Positions 14,599 through 27,289 of a stretch of DNA of 27,289 nucleotides are shown piece after piece. A model generated the notes under the pieces. The model saw only the letters and a list, made by a program, of their open reading frames with translations, did not search any database and had not been told where the DNA came from. Position numbers and translations under genes: made by a program. This stretch comes from a virus, in the IMG/VR virus record IMGVR_UViG_3300040807_000744, positions 1 through 27,289 of that record; one strand, 5' to 3'. How positions within the stretch are numbered: the first letter of the stretch is position 1; each line of letters begins with the position of its first letter.

Positions 14599-14856
14599 AT
14601 GGCATTTTCACGTTCTGGTCTTTCGCGCATTGGTGGTTCTGGTGATGCAAACGCTGTATGGGTTTACTCATCTACTGAAGCACCTGCTACTGTTGCTGGT
14701 TCTGGCTTCTTCAACGACGCAAGCGCTGAGCTTACTGTCGGTGATGTGGTCTTAATCGTTGACACTGACGCACCTGCTGTCACTGTATCCTTCGTTATTT
14801 CTAATAGCGCTGGTGTAGTTGACTTGGCTTCTGGTACGGCTGTAGGCAACGTCTAA
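14599..14856 (+). CDS. Capsid-associated beta-domain protein (decoration or minor head protein)
   Basis: 85 residues just after the capsid gene, AAGGAGA-type site upstream. All-beta, Gly/Val/Thr-rich: GDANAVWVYSSTEAPATVAG, SGFFNDASAELTVGDVVLIV, TVSFVISNSAGVVDLA. The same pattern, 'Y-S/E-T-T/E ... T-V-x-A-x-G-F/Y-F-N-x-A-x-x-x-L-x-V-x-D', recurs at the start of the protein at 15458. Proteins of this look follow the coat gene in related phages and are likely structural. Capsid-like codon bias suggests a high copy number. Confidence 0.65.
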   Translation: MAFSRSGLSRIGGSGDANAVWVYSSTEAPATVAGSGFFNDASAELTVGDVVLIVDTDAPAVTVSFVISNSAGVVDLASGTAVGNV

Positions 14857-14900: not shown

Positions 14901-15458
14901 ATGGCGAGCAAAATCGACCTGATTAGTAATGCGTTAATCTTGATCGGTGACACGCCGATTAACTCATTGACAGGTGGGACACGAGCACAACAAGTTGCGT
15001 CCAATCTGTACGACAACATCGTCCAAAATGAATTGACCAAGCATCGTTGGGGCTTTGCCAAGAAAAAGGCACAGCTTGCCCTAACTACTGACACTCCAGT
15101 AGATAATGAGTGGAAAAGCATATATCAACTCCCAACCGATCTACTGTTCCTAATCAAGGTATACCCATCTACAAATTACGCTCTGTATGGCGACAAGGTG
15201 TACGCCGATACTAAAGATGCGCTATACGCTGATTACATATACAACGTTCCCGAATCTGAGTGGCCTGTTTATTTCGCTAAGATGATCGAGTATGCGCTGG
15301 CCCGTGACTTTGCTGCATCCATACGTGACAGTGATTCGGCTAGGCAAACAATGTCGGCTGAATATGTTAATCAGGCTAGAATGGCCAGATACACCGATTC
15401 ACAGCAATACCCTGTAGTACCTGTAGCATCCAATCCATTTGTTAACGTGAGGTTCTAA
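14901..15458 (+). CDS. Tail tubular protein A (adaptor, T7 gp11 type)
   Basis: 185 residues, near T7 gp11 size. Family features: N-terminal IDLISNALILIGDTPINSLT, QVASNLYDNIVQNELTKHRW, FAKKKAQLAL, YQLPTDLLFLIKVYP, and YADYIYNVPESEWPVYFAKM before a helical end. It forms the ring joining connector and nozzle. AAGGTGAG lies upstream of ATG 14901. It ends in a TAATG overlap with the next gene. Confidence 0.9.
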   Translation: MASKIDLISNALILIGDTPINSLTGGTRAQQVASNLYDNIVQNELTKHRWGFAKKKAQLALTTDTPVDNEWKSIYQLPTDLLFLIKVYPSTNYALYGDKVYADTKDALYADYIYNVPESEWPVYFAKMIEYALARDFAASIRDSDSARQTMSAEYVNQARMARYTDSQQYPVVPVASNPFVNVRF

Positions 15459-16111
15459 TGTTTGATAACGAGAGCTTCTCACACGTAGGCGGCAGTTCAC
15501 CTGCACCACGTATATACACTTATGAGACTACGGATATACGCACTACCGTTCTGGCTACGGGTTACTTCAACCAGGCTTATACGAAACTTCAGGTTAAAGA
15601 CCTAATCATCGTTAACAATTCTGTAGAAGTGTATACATGTAAGGTTACAGCGGTATCTAAGAATAGCGTAACGGTTGCCAAGACTTCATTCCTAGATCGA
15701 GAGTATGCTCATTACTATTTGAGTCAAGAAACAACTTTGGATTTAGATGAAGATGGTGTCACCTATACCGAAGTGCCAAATATGGCGATCGGATTAAATA
15801 GAGACTTTACGCTGTCTGACAACACTCTTACTTATACTGGCGTGGGTGGCACGTTTACATTCAACGGCACCAGCAGTGTATCTACAAACAAAACCGCCGA
15901 TGTAACAATGTCATTAGAGATTAATGGCGTGGTTAGTGGCGTGTCTATGCTTGACTCACACCAAGGCGGTAATAAGCGGCAATCAACTGCATCTGTTGGC
16001 GTGTTTCAGATTAGCTCAGGTGATGAGTTTAAGGTTTTGGTTAAAGGCGACGGGCAGAGCAATTTGTCTGCAACCTTTTACAATATGAATCTAGTGTTTA
16101 CGGAGCTTTAA
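15458..16111 (+). CDS. Beta-rich tail or head structural protein of unknown role
   Basis: 217 residues between tail tubular proteins A and B. Residues ~20-75 (TYETTDIRTTVLATGYFNQA, KLQVKDLIIVNNS, CKVTAVSKNSVTVAK) repeat the domain of the 85-aa protein at 14599. The C-terminal ~100 residues (DFTLSDNTLTYTGVGGTFTF, ADVTMSLEINGVVSGVS, VGVFQISSGDEFKVLVKGDG) look like a jelly-roll/C1q-TNF-like beta sandwich as found in receptor-binding or trimerising virion proteins. Probably a virion component, perhaps an appendage; function is inference. Confidence 0.65.
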   Translation: MFDNESFSHVGGSSPAPRIYTYETTDIRTTVLATGYFNQAYTKLQVKDLIIVNNSVEVYTCKVTAVSKNSVTVAKTSFLDREYAHYYLSQETTLDLDEDGVTYTEVPNMAIGLNRDFTLSDNTLTYTGVGGTFTFNGTSSVSTNKTADVTMSLEINGVVSGVSMLDSHQGGNKRQSTASVGVFQISSGDEFKVLVKGDGQSNLSATFYNMNLVFTEL

Positions 16112-18591
16112 TGGCCAAGTCACGATTCATTCAAAGCAACTTTGTAAGCGGGGCGCTCTCTCCACTACTCAAAGGGCGCATAGACCTACAGCAATACTAT
16201 CAGGGCGCTGAGGTTGCTAGAAACCTTGTTATCGTCCCACAGGGTGGTTTAAAGCGCAGGGCTGGCACTCAGTATGTAGATAAAGCGTTAAACGTTTTAA
16301 CAAAGGCTGCGGCCTTAATTACGATGCCCAACGGTGGTACACCTGCCGACATTAACGATGAAGACGATACAACCACCACTACAACCACAAGTAATGTAAG
16401 CACAACCAACCCCTACGTTGTTGCCCAGATGGATTTGGCGGGGCCTGTTGCTGTCGAAGTATTAGATGTGAGGGGAATCCTATTAACGTCTGGTACATCT
16501 GATGAGTTTGATGTTGAGTATTCCGATGATGCATCTTCTTGGACTAAGCTAACAGACATACCCCTGCTCGGCTCTAACCCGCAAAACTTTAGGTTTAAAG
16601 TTGGGTTGGCAAAGCGTTACTTTAGAATTGTAAAGAATACCGCCACAGACCTTGGCACAGCAAAGGTTACACTGAGTGACTTCAACGTGTTTGCTCAGTC
16701 TGCTACAGCGTCCAACGTTAAGCTAATTGATTTCAGTGTTGAGTCTGATCGTCATTATCTATTGTCATTAACCGACAAGAACATCCGTATATACAGAACG
16801 CCAGATACTTATGTGGCTGACGTTAAGGTTGACTTCCTATCCGCTGACATTCCAGATGTAAGGGATACGCAGGTAGAGAATGTAATGCTTTTATTCCAGG
16901 AAGATTACGCATCGAAGCGATTAATTAACCTGGGAGTTGATAGCGATTGGTTCTTGGATAACATTCCGTTTGTTAATGTACCCCAGTTTGACTACAACGA
17001 TGCGCTAAGCCCAACGCCTGTAGCCGATGTTCAGCGCATGACGCTAACGTCTTTTGTTGCTGGCGATACCTTCCAAATTGATATTGAGGGTGTGCTGTCT
17101 AAAAACATCACATTTGCTGGTGACGCTACTGCCGATCAAAGAAACTCAACTGTATTCAATATTCAGAAGAACATTCAAGAGATGCCTGTTATGGGCGACA
17201 CTGGTGTTACAGTTGCTTACGTTTCTGCTGGTGTTTACGACATATCTGTTGACGGTGAATCTGCTAAAGACTTTGAGTTATATTCTGGATTTGCGACAAG
17301 TGGCACAGCAAGTAAGACAGTAGCATTTACTAAGACCGCTACAGGCTCACCAAGAAAAGAGGATGTGTGGTCAAGCACTAGGGGTTGGCCTAAGACTGGC
17401 TGCTTCTTTGAGAATCGCCTTGTTTTGGGTGGAACTAAGTCTAAGCCGCAAAGTTTATTTGCCAGTAAGTCTGGCGCATTCTTTGACTTCGATATTGATG
17501 ATGGCGACGATGATGAGGCAATCTTTGCGACCATTTCATCTCGAAAGCTGAATGAAATTATTGACGTATTCCCTGGGCGTAACCTGCAAATCTTTACGTC
17601 TGGTGCTGAGTTTGCTGTAACCAGTAAGCCTATAACGCCAAGCAACATAGACATTAGTCCACAAACTTCTCATGGCGCATCTAACATTGAGGTTCAGGAG
17701 GTAGACGGCTCTACACTGTTCATTGATCGAAACGGTAAAACGTTACGCGACTTTGTATACAGCTTTAATGAAGATGCCTATACAACCCAAGATAAGTCCG
17801 TTCTAGCGTCACACCTTATTAAGCAACCTGTAGACCTTGCTCTATTGGGTGGTACTCAGAGCGAGGATTCAAACTGGCTATTCATTGTTAATAGTGATGG
17901 CGGTGTGGCGGTATTGAACACACTACGATCACAAGATATTAACGGCTTTACCGAATGGACTACTTCCGGTGCAATTAAGTCTGTTGCTGTTGTTGATGAC
18001 GAGTTGTACACGCTTAACGAGCGTACGATTGATAGTACGACTGTATCCTACATTGAGCGCTGGGATTTCACCTATGTTATGGATTCATCTATTAAGGTAA
18101 GCCCAACACCAACACAAACGGTAATCACTGGCCTTGATCACCTAGAGGGCGAGACCATTCAGATTGTTGGCGATACCATTGTCCTAAATCCGAAGACGGT
18201 AGCCAGTGGGCAGGTTACATTAGACGCTGACGAGATAGGTTATACAGAATTACAGTTAGGTATTAACTTCACCCCTGAGTTAGTGCCCATGCCATTGAAT
18301 ACAAGCATTGGTTCTGGTCAGAATGCAATGAGACTGAAGCGCATTATACGAGTCAATATGCGCGTATATGAGACGTTTGGTGTTCACATAGACGGCAACC
18401 CTGTTCCGATACGAACGTTTGGCTCAGCGCCAACCACGCCGCTAGATAGCGCTCCAAACAAGTTAAGTGGCATAATATCCGACATATACGATATTAACGG
18501 ATGGAATAGAGACACAATGCCAACAATCAGTGTACCCGATCCAACGCCATTCCATATCCAGGCGATTGAATACGAGGTTGAATCATCGTGA
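16111..18591 (+). CDS. Tail tubular protein B (nozzle, T7 gp12 type) with inserted discoidin-like domain
   Basis: 826 residues, close to T7 gp12 (794). Family features: N-terminal SNFVSGALSPLLKGRIDLQQ, LVIVPQGGLKRRAGTQYV, then VKLIDFSVESDRHYLLSLTD, WPKTGCFFENRLVLGGTKSK, FTSGAEFAVTS and a C-terminal VRRIIRVN-like beta part (ALRLKRIIRVN written MRLKRIIRVN here). Residues ~68-195 interrupt this with a Thr-rich linker (DEDDTTTTTTTSN) and a module with FDVEYSDDASSWTKLTDIPL and YFRIVKN, the look of an F5/8 type C domain. The protein forms the tail nozzle and holds the fibres. Starts in a TAATG overlap. Confidence 0.9.
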   Translation: MAKSRFIQSNFVSGALSPLLKGRIDLQQYYQGAEVARNLVIVPQGGLKRRAGTQYVDKALNVLTKAAALITMPNGGTPADINDEDDTTTTTTTSNVSTTNPYVVAQMDLAGPVAVEVLDVRGILLTSGTSDEFDVEYSDDASSWTKLTDIPLLGSNPQNFRFKVGLAKRYFRIVKNTATDLGTAKVTLSDFNVFAQSATASNVKLIDFSVESDRHYLLSLTDKNIRIYRTPDTYVADVKVDFLSADIPDVRDTQVENVMLLFQEDYASKRLINLGVDSDWFLDNIPFVNVPQFDYNDALSPTPVADVQRMTLTSFVAGDTFQIDIEGVLSKNITFAGDATADQRNSTVFNIQKNIQEMPVMGDTGVTVAYVSAGVYDISVDGESAKDFELYSGFATSGTASKTVAFTKTATGSPRKEDVWSSTRGWPKTGCFFENRLVLGGTKSKPQSLFASKSGAFFDFDIDDGDDDEAIFATISSRKLNEIIDVFPGRNLQIFTSGAEFAVTSKPITPSNIDISPQTSHGASNIEVQEVDGSTLFIDRNGKTLRDFVYSFNEDAYTTQDKSVLASHLIKQPVDLALLGGTQSEDSNWLFIVNSDGGVAVLNTLRSQDINGFTEWTTSGAIKSVAVVDDELYTLNERTIDSTTVSYIERWDFTYVMDSSIKVSPTPTQTVITGLDHLEGETIQIVGDTIVLNPKTVASGQVTLDADEIGYTELQLGINFTPELVPMPLNTSIGSGQNAMRLKRIIRVNMRVYETFGVHIDGNPVPIRTFGSAPTTPLDSAPNKLSGIISDIYDINGWNRDTMPTISVPDPTPFHIQAIEYEVESS

Positions 18592-18962
18592 ATCTGGCCG
18601 TACAAAACAACATATTCAAGCTACAGGATTTCATGCTTCAGCAGGAACAGGCTGAAACAGAAACCATCCACCACTTCTCTGAAGGCATTTATGCTCGGGA
18701 ATTGCGGATACCTGCTGGCGTATGTGTTGTTGGCGCATTACACAAAACGCGACACTTTATGATGGTATCTAAGGGCCGATGCTCTATAGCCACCCATGAG
18801 GGCGCAGAGATTGTAGAAGCACCGTACATGGTTGAAACTACACCAGGTATCAAGCGTGTTATCTACGCAGAGACCGATTTAGTGATGACAACATTTCATG
18901 TAACGAACGAAACAGATATAGATAAAATAGCAGAACAGATACTTGTTCCGGAGAATATATAA
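18588..18962 (+). CDS. Cupin-like small phage protein
   Basis: 124 residues from GTG 18588 (GTGA overlap; GAGG ~11 nt upstream). The pattern ARELRIPAGVCVVGALHKTR, HFMMVSKGRCSIATHEGAEI and VIYAETDLVMTTFHVTNETD is that of the small RmlC-like/cupin proteins found in phage tail regions. A metal-site His pair (HKTRHF) is visible. Its function in phages is unknown, perhaps assembly or host-surface chemistry. Ends in a TAATG overlap with the ejection protein genes. Confidence 0.65.
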   Translation: MNLAVQNNIFKLQDFMLQQEQAETETIHHFSEGIYARELRIPAGVCVVGALHKTRHFMMVSKGRCSIATHEGAEIVEAPYMVETTPGIKRVIYAETDLVMTTFHVTNETDIDKIAEQILVPENI

Positions 18963-23163: not shown

Positions 23164-25465
23164 CTTCGCACAATGTATAGACATAGCCTATAAGAATGGG
23201 CGCATAACTAAGGAAATTGCCGATCTAATAAAATCGTCGGACGATCCCAATGCGGCTATTGACAATCTTTTAGGTGAGTTAACTCGTAATAAGCGCGAAG
23301 CCGCTATCCAGGCTGTGCGTATCGCGCAACGATACGATGATATTAAAAGCCACCCAGACGGGATGATGGCTGGCCTAATAGCGACGATGACAAAAGACAA
23401 TCGCCAAAAAGCAAAATACAACAATGTTGATTCTTTGGCTCGCTTTTATACAGATAAATACAGCTCCAAGTTAGCTAATGTTTTATCTAAATACCGAACT
23501 CGCATGTTTGGTTTTAGTCAGGATGAAGAAGGCCTAGAGAAAATGATTCGCGCTATTTATGGTGAGGATGTTGGCGATCCTGAAATTAGCAAGTTTGCTA
23601 AAGATTGGTTAGATGTTACCGAAGAAATTCGCCAGACATTCAATGCTCGCGGCGGGTCTATATCTAAGAATGAGAGCTGGTTATTGCCGCAAAATCACGA
23701 TGCAACTGCGATTAAGAAAGTAGGTTTAGAGCAATGGAAGGCTAAGATTCGACCCATGCTGGACGAGTCTAAAATGTTTACCGATGAGCCGTACCAGTTT
23801 ACCGATGCGGCTTCAGACCAGATAGATGAGGCTCTGAATGCAGTATATGAAACCATTACGACTCACGGTTTAAACAAAGTTAAAGAGTTTTCCAGCCCCA
23901 GGCTAGGCAAAAAACTATCGAGACGAGGCGGTGAGCAGCGATTTTTATACTTTAAAGATGCAAACTCGTGGCTATCTTATCAAAGAGAGTTTGGTCGAGG
24001 CGATATTTTTACCACATTAACCGACCACATTAGCCAAAGATCGCATGACATAGCGCTAATGGAGCTGTTTGGCACTAACCCAGATGCGGCATTTAATGGC
24101 CTGTTGGCTCGCATTAGAACCGAATCAGACGTTAGCGGATATCAATTATCTTTTGCCAATTCAGTATGGAATGTGGTTTCGGGTAAATTAAGCCGAGGCG
24201 ACATGGTTGGTCTTGCTGACTTTATGCAGACGACTCGCAACGTTTTAACTGCTAGCACATTAGGAAAGGCATTCTTATCTGCAATTTCAGATACTGGCTT
24301 TCAGGCTATTACGTCTATGTATAATGGCGTTCCTGCTATGCGTGTATTTAAGCGTATCTTTAGCCAGATGAATCCAGCGAATGAAGCGGATCGAATCTTT
24401 GCGGTTAAGATTGGTTTGGGCGCTGAGGCGTGGCTAGGACGAGCCATGGCGGCAAACAGATATTCAGATGTCTATGGCACTGGAATGTCTACAAAGATCG
24501 CTGAAGGCGTGATGAGATTTTCTTTGTTGCAACCTTGGACCGATGCGGGGCAAAAAGCATTCAGCATGGAGTTTAGCTCGTTGCTGGCCGAGAACTTTGG
24601 CAAATCATTAAGCGAGCTAGACGATCCATTACAAAGACAGTTTGCTGCTTATGGTATTACTGAGGGCGACTGGAATCTGTTTAGAAAGAGTAAGACCCTA
24701 GATTACAAAGGCGCTAAGTTTGCCGATATGACTCAGGATGGTGGCGTCAAGTTTCACCAGATGATAATGACCGAGCGTGACTATGCTGTGCCCGTGCCAG
24801 ACTCTAGGGTTCGGGCGATAACCACTGGTGGTTATGGGCGCGGTACGGTTGGCGGCCAAATCATGCGGACCATAATGAACCTTAAATCGTTCCCGATTAC
24901 CATTGCCACAACCCATTTGTATCGCATGGCATTCCAGGCTACTACTGGCCAGAAGTTGCAGTATGGCGGTTTTTTAATGGCAAGTACCACTGCGCTAGGC
25001 GGCGTTGCATTGTTGGCTAAAGACTTTGCTGCGGGTAGAGAGCCAAGAGAAGTGGACGAGAAATTCCTAGCGGCTGCAATTGCTCAAGGTGGTGGCGTTG
25101 GCATCTTTGGTGACTACGTATTTTCTGACGTGAACCGATTTGGTCAAGGCCCAATATCTAGCGCATTCGGCCCGACCGGAGAGCTAGCAGAAAAGACCAT
25201 ATCTTTAGTTCTTGGCAATATGCAGCAAGCCGTTAAGGGTGAGGAAACAAATGTATTGGGCGAGGCTGTGCGTTATGTAGAGCGTTATACGCCCGACACA
25301 TGGCAGACACATTTATTCAAAAATGCGTTTTTCGATCAAATGGAGATGATGGCTGACCCTGAAGCGCAACGCAGGTATAATCGCATGATGAGAAAACGTA
25401 TGCGAGAATACAATCAAGATTATTGGTGGAAGCCAGGCGAACCATTACCAGAGGCATTACAATGA
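23150..25465 (+). CDS. Ejection protein, C-terminal part of gp16-like protein
   Basis: 771 residues if begun at GTG 23150; a TTG at 23156 with GGAG 7 nt upstream is the better reinitiation site. Features: CIDIAYKNGRITKEIADLIK, FGFSQDEEGLEKMIRAIYGE, a long helical middle, GRGTVGGQIMRTIMNLKSFP and hydrophobic TATTL-like GGFLMASTTALGGVALLAKD, the C-terminal half of gp16-like proteins. Overlaps the previous gene by 14 nt in another frame. The two together are about 1,330 residues, near T7 gp16 at 1,318. Either a natural split, reinitiation, frameshift or sequence error. Confidence 0.75.
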   Translation: MLLASFAQCIDIAYKNGRITKEIADLIKSSDDPNAAIDNLLGELTRNKREAAIQAVRIAQRYDDIKSHPDGMMAGLIATMTKDNRQKAKYNNVDSLARFYTDKYSSKLANVLSKYRTRMFGFSQDEEGLEKMIRAIYGEDVGDPEISKFAKDWLDVTEEIRQTFNARGGSISKNESWLLPQNHDATAIKKVGLEQWKAKIRPMLDESKMFTDEPYQFTDAASDQIDEALNAVYETITTHGLNKVKEFSSPRLGKKLSRRGGEQRFLYFKDANSWLSYQREFGRGDIFTTLTDHISQRSHDIALMELFGTNPDAAFNGLLARIRTESDVSGYQLSFANSVWNVVSGKLSRGDMVGLADFMQTTRNVLTASTLGKAFLSAISDTGFQAITSMYNGVPAMRVFKRIFSQMNPANEADRIFAVKIGLGAEAWLGRAMAANRYSDVYGTGMSTKIAEGVMRFSLLQPWTDAGQKAFSMEFSSLLAENFGKSLSELDDPLQRQFAAYGITEGDWNLFRKSKTLDYKGAKFADMTQDGGVKFHQMIMTERDYAVPVPDSRVRAITTGGYGRGTVGGQIMRTIMNLKSFPITIATTHLYRMAFQATTGQKLQYGGFLMASTTALGGVALLAKDFAAGREPREVDEKFLAAAIAQGGGVGIFGDYVFSDVNRFGQGPISSAFGPTGELAEKTISLVLGNMQQAVKGEETNVLGEAVRYVERYTPDTWQTHLFKNAFFDQMEMMADPEAQRRYNRMMRKRMREYNQDYWWKPGEPLPEALQ

Positions 25466-27289
25466 CAGTAGCAAGCAACACAAGCCGTAACCAATATACC
25501 GCTACCAGTGGTCAGACGGTATTCCCATATACGTTTGAGATATTCGATAAGAATGATGTGGTCGTTATTAAAGGCTCTACCATTCTTGCTGAAGGTACAA
25601 ACTATACCGTATCAGGTGTTGGCAGTGAGGGCGGTGGAAATATTACTCTGCTTGTTGGCGCAACCGCTGGTGAAATCCTTACAATCTATCGGGATATGGC
25701 GTATCAGCGTTTAACTGACTATCAAACCTCGGGTGACTTTCTAGCCCAAGAAGTAAACGACGACTTTGATCGCTTGTGGTTGGCCGTTCAGCAGAATGAA
25801 GATTCTGACGTTCGGTCTATCAGAAAGCCTGTTACCGACCTAGATAGCATTAACATGGAGCTTCCCATTGCTAGCGATAGGGCCAACAAGTATCTGAAGT
25901 TTGGTGGCAATGGTGAAGTGGTCGCTGTAGCAACATCATCTACTGCCGATTCAGGAACCATATACATAGAAGAATATGGTGGTGGTGTAAATGTTAGCGC
26001 CGCACAAAACACATCTGCATTGATTGCCGCTGTAGCAGCTTCGGATGGCGGCACTGTTGCCATTGGTCATTACCCTGTTAGCGGAAGCAACACATACCAG
26101 TTTAACTCCACTGAAATTACATCCGATGTTGTAACCTTGTCATTTAACAACGCAACCATTCTGGGTGCCGATGACGGTGTTGGCGATGCGTTCTTTAAGT
26201 TTAACGCAAAGAAAGTAACAATCACTGGAAAGGCCACAATAAACTGCCAGGATAATTATGCGGCTGGCATTATGGTTTACAACGACGATGCCAGTGAGGC
26301 CGAGACAAACCTGATTGAAGGCATGAAGATATTAAATGTCTTTCAGGATACAGCCCTAACATCTACTCAGGCTAACGGTATCGTTATCTGGGGCGGGTTT
26401 GCTGGTAGCTTAATCCAAGACTGTACGATTAATGGCGTTGCCAGTAATGGCCCTGACACGGTTGCAGGTGGTGCTATTGCACGTGGTATTTTATTCAGAT
26501 ACCTATCGTCTACTGGATTAGTATCGAAAGAGAATATTGTTCAGTCTTGCCATATTGAAGACCTAACCCCCGCGTCTGAAGCGGATGGCATCTTTGCTCA
26601 AGAAAGCCCGTACGAGTATGTAAACAACAATTCACTTACGGTAAATAACTGTACGTTCGTAAACTGTGAGAAGCGCGCCGTTAAAAGCCAGGTTCCCATC
26701 TTTGTTGCTACAAACAACAAGGTATTCAGAACGCGCGCATTTGATTTAAGCGATCTAACTACTCAGCCTTTTGGTGTAGACTTTGACGCCCAATATGGTG
26801 GTGCTTACATTGCGGGCAATACTTCGGTTTGGGAGTCTGGGTCATACGCTCCAACATCGTTTGCTGTAGTAAGTTGTAAGATGACGCTAGAAGAAGGCGG
26901 CTCAATCTCATCTACAGGTAAGCGTAACTACAATAGCAATATCGTAGACAACACTGTTTACATTGGTGATGACACTATTCGATCCGGCAGTCAGAGAACC
27001 ATTGTCTTATTGCAGAACCGAATTGCTGCCGATGATTCATTCTGGTCTAACTTTGGTACGGTTACGGTAGAGAACAACACAATACAGGGCCCCGTTAAAC
27101 AGTTTGGATGGGGCTTCTTAATTGGTACTACTGGCGAGAAACAGTTTGAGCAATTCAACATCTTGAATAACTATGTTGAGGATGCCGATCAGATTGTGCT
27201 ATTGACTAATGACACATCAAACACCCCAGGCGGGGCGACAACCTTTGCGGGTAACATTACGATCAAAGGGTGTTCTATTCGAGATAAAG
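25462..27289 (+). CDS. Tail fibre/spike protein with T7-type N-terminus and beta-helix body, 3'-truncated
   Basis: 609 codons open to the window end, so the 3' end is missing. ATG 25462 overlaps the preceding stop (ATGA). Residues ~1-125 are the T7 tail-fibre N-terminal domain that docks on the nozzle: NTSRNQYTATSGQTVFPYTF, EILTIYRDMAYQRLTDYQTS, GDFLAQEVNDDFDRLWLAVQ. From ~173 on comes a right-handed parallel beta-helix: an NTSALIAAVAASDGGTVAIG start as in pectate-lyase-like proteins, then repeated short turns with ITGKATINCQDN, SLIQDCTINGV, LTVNNCTFVNC, VTVENNTIQGP, ITIKGCSIRDK. Such bodies often bind or cut surface polysaccharide; catalytic residues cannot be picked out. Confidence 0.88.
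   Translation, partial: MTVASNTSRNQYTATSGQTVFPYTFEIFDKNDVVVIKGSTILAEGTNYTVSGVGSEGGGNITLLVGATAGEILTIYRDMAYQRLTDYQTSGDFLAQEVNDDFDRLWLAVQQNEDSDVRSIRKPVTDLDSINMELPIASDRANKYLKFGGNGEVVAVATSSTADSGTIYIEEYGGGVNVSAAQNTSALIAAVAASDGGTVAIGHYPVSGSNTYQFNSTEITSDVVTLSFNNATILGADDGVGDAFFKFNAKKVTITGKATINCQDNYAAGIMVYNDDASEAETNLIEGMKILNVFQDTALTSTQANGIVIWGGFAGSLIQDCTINGVASNGPDTVAGGAIARGILFRYLSSTGLVSKENIVQSCHIEDLTPASEADGIFAQESPYEYVNNNSLTVNNCTFVNCEKRAVKSQVPIFVATNNKVFRTRAFDLSDLTTQPFGVDFDAQYGGAYIAGNTSVWESGSYAPTSFAVVSCKMTLEEGGSISSTGKRNYNSNIVDNTVYIGDDTIRSGSQRTIVLLQNRIAADDSFWSNFGTVTVENNTIQGPVKQFGWGFLIGTTGEKQFEQFNILNNYVEDADQIVLLTNDTSNTPGGATTFAGNITIKGCSIRDK

Follow-up and report, generated by a model that had tools for sequence, protein, structure and literature searches.

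The tail nozzle is usually seen as plumbing, a part that seals and releases the DNA. In SU10, blades 1-3 of the nozzle are set off from the axis of the tail, and the edge of blade 1 carries the dock of the short fibres (PMC9509320); in T7 the fibre dock is found on the outer surface (PMC6702177). In phage OWB, the tail tubular proteins TTPA and TTPB bind Vp0980 (PMC7241545). We analysed a stretch of 27,289 bases of the virus record IMGVR_UViG_3300040807_000744 (the window, meaning this whole stretch), from a short-tailed phage of marine type whose nozzle shares its core and the gene order adaptor-nozzle with those of T7, Carin-1 (8ck1), LME-1 (9efk), P-SCSP1u and SU10, and carries in addition an inserted domain with the predicted fold of discoidin.

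The + strand of the window bears a T7-like structural block, in the order terminase, portal (a gene that matches a head-tail adaptor PHROG), scaffold-like gene, major capsid, a gene for an 85-aa protein (14599-14856), tail tubular protein A, a gene for a 217-aa product (15458-16111), nozzle, a gene for a 124-aa short-fibre-like product (18588-18962), genes for internal virion-type proteins and, truncated where the window ends, a tail fibre (25423-27288). Tail tubular protein A, the adaptor (185 aa, 14901-15458), matches the PHROG 394 tail protein with E 1.6e-36, and a single gene separates it from the nozzle. The fibre has an anchor-like N-terminus; residues 14-138 match several tail-fibre PHROGs as well as a tail protein, PHROG 1640 (E 1.6e-35). 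The N-terminal ~50 residues of the 217-aa protein resemble the 85-aa protein (33% identity, E 4e-11) and the C-termini are unrelated; this points to a paralogous anchor with a new tip, possibly a small fibre or decoration protein.

From its homologies, the 826-aa product encoded at 16111-18591 (+ strand) can be regarded as an established tail nozzle of the T7 gp12 (tail tubular protein B) type, in agreement with the initial annotation. It matches the PHROG 376 tail protein with E 4.9e-125 and, by phmmer, the nozzles of Carin-1 (8ck1, E 3.5e-45) and LME-1 (9efk, E 4e-29). A Foldseek search with the full-length model, which is of moderate confidence (pLDDT 73, with two long low regions), returned 8ck1, 9efk and T7 gp12 as the top matches, corresponding to the propeller plus platform fold. 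The Phage_nozzle family PF25675 is not among the Pfam matches of this protein at E <= 1, whereas its relative from the Alcaligenes phage Piluca matches it with E 3.4e-16; the Pfam scan of the 826 residues found no enzyme domain.

Near its N-terminus the protein departs from its solved homologs. In 8ck1 the core is interrupted at residue 61 and continues at 72, whereas in the window nozzle the interruption goes from 55 to 203, and neither 8ck1 nor 9efk has a counterpart of residues ~59-203. Since the match to PHROG 376 starts at residue 200 and at profile position 63, the consensus of the family does not include the segment. In the full-length model it occupies the turn between two core strands defined by DSSP, residues 52-58 (16264-16284) and 204-210 (16720-16740), the latter opening the next propeller blade and bearing a conserved KL.DF motif. 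An insertion at residues ~68-195 had been proposed (16312-16696, which are residues 68-196 of the ORF), and the quoted strings TTTTTTT (residues 87-93), VEYSDDASSWTKL, RYFRIVKN and VKLIDFSVESDRHYLL are present in the ORF. The insertion itself stands and its limits were right to within ~10 residues; the alignments and the gap survey put them rather at residues ~59-203 (about 16285-16719, + strand), replacing a turn of 5-11 residues, with the folded part at ~66-198.

The insert is present in all 80 viral contigs that encode close relatives of the nozzle (58-98% identity). In a survey of 199 distinct nozzles, in which the distance from the N-terminal motif RR.GT.F to the motif KL..F was measured, 124 had the insert and 75 lacked it. 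The carriers have ~140-235 residues between these anchors and every one matches the segment profile; none of the 75 does, and 74 of them have 5-11 residues, the nozzle of the Pelagibacter phage Baldr being arranged otherwise. The clade built on the Methylophilales phage MEP301 is without the insert and has ~31-36% core identity to the window nozzle; L213 and L223 reach ~54%, yet have 8 residues at the insert site. It had been considered that the segment might be core fold in every family member, which is ruled out by the 75 nozzles without it. An assembly artefact is likewise ruled out by the presence of the insert on independent contigs, such as L001 at 98% identity. The insertion into the nozzle is thus established.

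The segment had been said to look like an F5/8 type C domain, and several approaches agree with this. AlphaFold2, with 56 aligned sequences, modelled residues 62-205 as a discoidin-type jelly-roll with mean pLDDT 95 and pTM 0.89, the beta-sandwich comprising residues ~66-198 (16306-16704, + strand). The best solved matches of the domain model in Foldseek are CBM32 domains (4lpl, E 6.4e-07), and VIA-align gave Z scores of 13.6 with IFT25 (2yc2_A) and ~13 with several CBM32 domains, aligned over 120-128 residues at 2.2-3.3 A, the CBM32/F5-8C matches having Z 12-13.6. The top BFVD match is A0A516KVZ4 (TM 0.90, 34% identity), and the family profile found in the PDB the CBM32 of the alginate lyase AlyB-OU02 (E 0.001). 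In Pfam the window nozzle matches PF00754 from residue 77, narrowly under the cut-off (E 1.9e-5, about 25.2-25.3 bits against 28.2), and is also under that of the NedA-like PF22633 (21.5 bits against 27.8). Among 56 relatives, PF00754 matches 47 and PF22633 matches 43, and the cut-off of PF22633 is passed by three of the ten relatives scanned (L038, L043 and L075, 28.5-29.8 bits). On these models we take the discoidin fold as established, and as a claim about the segment, fold plus insertion is close to certain. We classify the insert as discoidin-fold and not as CBM32, because it is embedded in a nozzle with no carbohydrate-active enzyme attached.

The seven consecutive Thr residues had been described as part of a linker leading to the domain, but this is ruled out by their conservation and by the confident fold. 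They belong to a motif, D83-x-D85-D86-x-T88 plus the Thr run, at residues 83-93 (16357-16389, + strand), in which D83 is conserved in 103 of 115 sequences, N or D at position 85 in 102, D86 in 97, T88 in 111, T92 in 113 and T93 in 108. The run (87-93) lies within the confident AlphaFold2 model, as a folded part of the domain, where F5/8C has its 'DGdxxTxW' stretch. Residues 83-93 are the counterpart of that stretch and a candidate for the structural metal site that the 'DG.D..T' loop forms in F5/8C domains. The insert also has conserved charged residues (D108, D119, R161 and R172), and about 14 of its positions are near-invariant across wide divergence.

A discoidin fold is not by itself proof of glycan binding, because IFT25 and APC10/Doc1, which also have the discoidin fold, are good structural matches too. 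To our knowledge neither is a known sugar binder, and APC10/Doc1 domains bind protein.

The position of the domain on the tail can be approached through the better-known nozzles. The full-length model has its first two blades of four strands at residues 204-239 and 251-284, followed by a tip insertion at about 285-418, assigned by analogy; the insert precedes them all. By homology to T7 and SU10 and from its location before the first blade, it should be found where that blade begins, on the outside of the tail and close to the fibre dock. As the confidence of the full-length model is only moderate, the argument for exposure is drawn from homology. SU10 has extra Ig-like domains as well, but these are placed between blades 2 and 3 (PMC9509320), a different site from that of the insert.

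The insert is the fastest-diverging region of the nozzle, with a mean pairwise identity of 48% against 53-74% elsewhere. Its median dN/dS is 0.096 and that of the core 0.065, indicating purifying selection, and values as low as these do not point to a current arms race through point mutations. The distribution of the insert is patchy: in a core tree built with the segment left out, well-supported branches force three or more changes in its presence and absence. Carriers are found in several groups (the clade of the window with L229 nearby; L235, L312 and L313; and phage SI2, whose placement is weak), and L213 and L223, without insert, are placed inside or beside the insert-bearing clade.

Moreover, the module is replaced, with a sharp edge, between nozzles that are nearly identical. 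Cores that are 85-95% identical may carry inserts only 32-50% identical, as in L042/L068 (core 95%, insert 49%), L214/L215 (88% and 32%) and L017/L016 (85% and 38%), and in these pairs the change begins at residue 59; in L042/L077, on the other hand, the core is 94% and the insert 92% identical. Between L044 and L068, DNA identity falls from 89% (residues 30-58) to 38% (residues 59-73) and recovers by residue 241. In several pairs the insert is also the more diverged part at synonymous sites (p 4e-4 to 0.04, for instance 4e-4 in L012/L017 and 1e-3 in L033/L034); the difference is not significant in L214/L215 (p 1) or between the window and L017 (p 0.56), and is reversed in L042/L077, where the inserts are more alike. 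Module exchange between related phages is the simplest reading of unlike inserts on like cores; diversifying selection by itself would not make synonymous sites diverge more. In exchanged pairs the blade strands adjoining the insert, residues 204-240 (16721-16830), diverge along with it (in L214/L215, DNA identity is 56% at residues 216-240), as if the recombined cassette reached into the first blade.

These data bear on the possibility that the domain is structural, stabilising the nozzle hexamer or the fibre/adaptor junction without any external ligand. Strong purifying selection on the insert, the conserved D108, D119, R161 and R172, the resemblance to IFT25 and APC10, and the co-divergence of blade residues 201-240, which suggests mutual packing, are all consistent with such a role. 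However, the domain is dispensable, since 75 relatives do without it, among them L213 and L223 within or next to the carrier clade, and it has diverged more quickly than the core and is swapped wholesale between near-identical nozzles. We therefore consider a purely structural role rather unlikely, though a serious alternative.

The domain might also serve as a dock for another virion protein, such as the 217-aa or the 124-aa product, whose genes flank that of the nozzle. The gene for the 217-aa protein separates the adaptor gene from that of the nozzle in 53 insert-bearing loci as opposed to 1 of 80 insert-less loci, but 80 insert-bearing loci do not have it there, a comparison partly confounded by ancestry. 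As for the 124-aa gene, L213 has it without the insert, whereas L033 and L054 have the insert and no recognisable copy. An obligate partnership with either product is ruled out by these loci having one without the other, and docking in general seems improbable.

The turn that receives the domain accepts more than one module, given that L208 (3001-5862) and L220 (3001-5838) have a gap of ~235 aa there and carry a further module of ~70 aa beside the discoidin domain. Elsewhere in the protein, the nozzle of Baldr (L086:3001-5442) has an E1_FCCH-type domain (E 7e-13) and that of Piluca (L088:2839-4917) a weak CBM5/12 match (E 0.038). The patchy gain and loss of the insert and the additional module of L208 and L220 would suit a neutral decoration domain with weak, non-specific surface adhesion, like some Ig-like domains of phage structural proteins. 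A dN/dS of about 0.1 and the ~14 near-invariant positions point instead to a maintained specific function, which makes neutral decoration improbable.

We favour a surface-binding and probably glycan-binding function for the insert, because of its fold, its likely exposed site, its dispensability, its exchange and the precedent of OWB. A discoidin-fold domain of ~135 residues is inserted in the beta-turn that leads into the first propeller blade, and in the hexameric nozzle six copies would stick out from the outside of the tail, beside the fibre dock. The domain would most likely bind host-surface glycans or capsule/EPS, and this contact, alongside that of the tail fibre, could add avidity or a second contact in adsorption and irreversible docking. 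Related phages exchange it or lose it as a whole, in line with what one expects of a surface-recognition module. We infer the outward position, the type of ligand and the role in adsorption, and give the explanation as a whole, an outward, exchangeable and probably glycan-binding nozzle module that aids adsorption, a probability of roughly 0.5. More tentatively, with the odds somewhat against it, the insert could represent a second, exchangeable host-recognition element in a large group of uncultured podophages, acting independently of the fibre and exchanged as a cassette that always occupies one turn of the propeller. If so, host contact in T7-like phages would not be left to fibres and spikes alone, and predicting the hosts of uncultured phages should draw on the nozzle gene in addition to that of the fibre. 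The fixed site and the naturally insert-less relatives make a nozzle module directly testable.

The discoidin fold and the nozzle are both known; no link between discoidin and a nozzle or tail tubular protein was found in the open-access literature searched. The only record with the module found in the cultured-phage collection is the Dunaliella viridis virus SI2 (NC_023841), where the protein is annotated as 'tail protein'. A tblastn search of cultured phages with the insert alone (from the window, L312 or the consensus) gave no match at E 1, but was insensitive, as it missed SI2 itself. In the fetched loci no discoidin family was found outside the nozzle gene, the 11 hits listed being nozzle ORFs of duplicate or truncated loci, of the window itself and of SI2. 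L312 and L313, from a Flavobacteriaceae and a Paracaedibacteraceae MAG, have adaptor and insert-bearing nozzle genes, so that these bacterial bins seem to include phage contigs or prophages. The nozzles of SI2, L312 and L313 have a discoidin-like module at a site matching that of the window, on distant cores.

With the F5/8 type C (PF00754/PF22633) and CBM32 domains found in glycoside hydrolases and alginate lyases the insert shares fold and length (Z up to ~13) and the conserved 'YSDD..SWT' and 'RY.R' stretches. However, it is only 15-20% identical to them, has no enzyme partner, and has Thr in place of the Trp found in the usual 'TxW' of F5/8C. Lectin domains of phage-type tails, those of the R pyocin fibre and the LKA-1 and 297 tailspikes, are akin to the lectin domain of discoidin I/II and not to its F5/8C domain. 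The discoidin-like 'foot' of the R pyocin fibre and the C-termini of the LKA-1 and 297 tailspikes are jelly-roll domains for sugar contact (PMC6363177), but they sit on fibres and spikes, whereas the domain described here is on the nozzle. TTPA and TTPB of OWB show that tail tubular proteins and not only fibres touch the host, although there the receptor is a protein and the abstract describes no inserted sugar-binding domain (PMC7241545).
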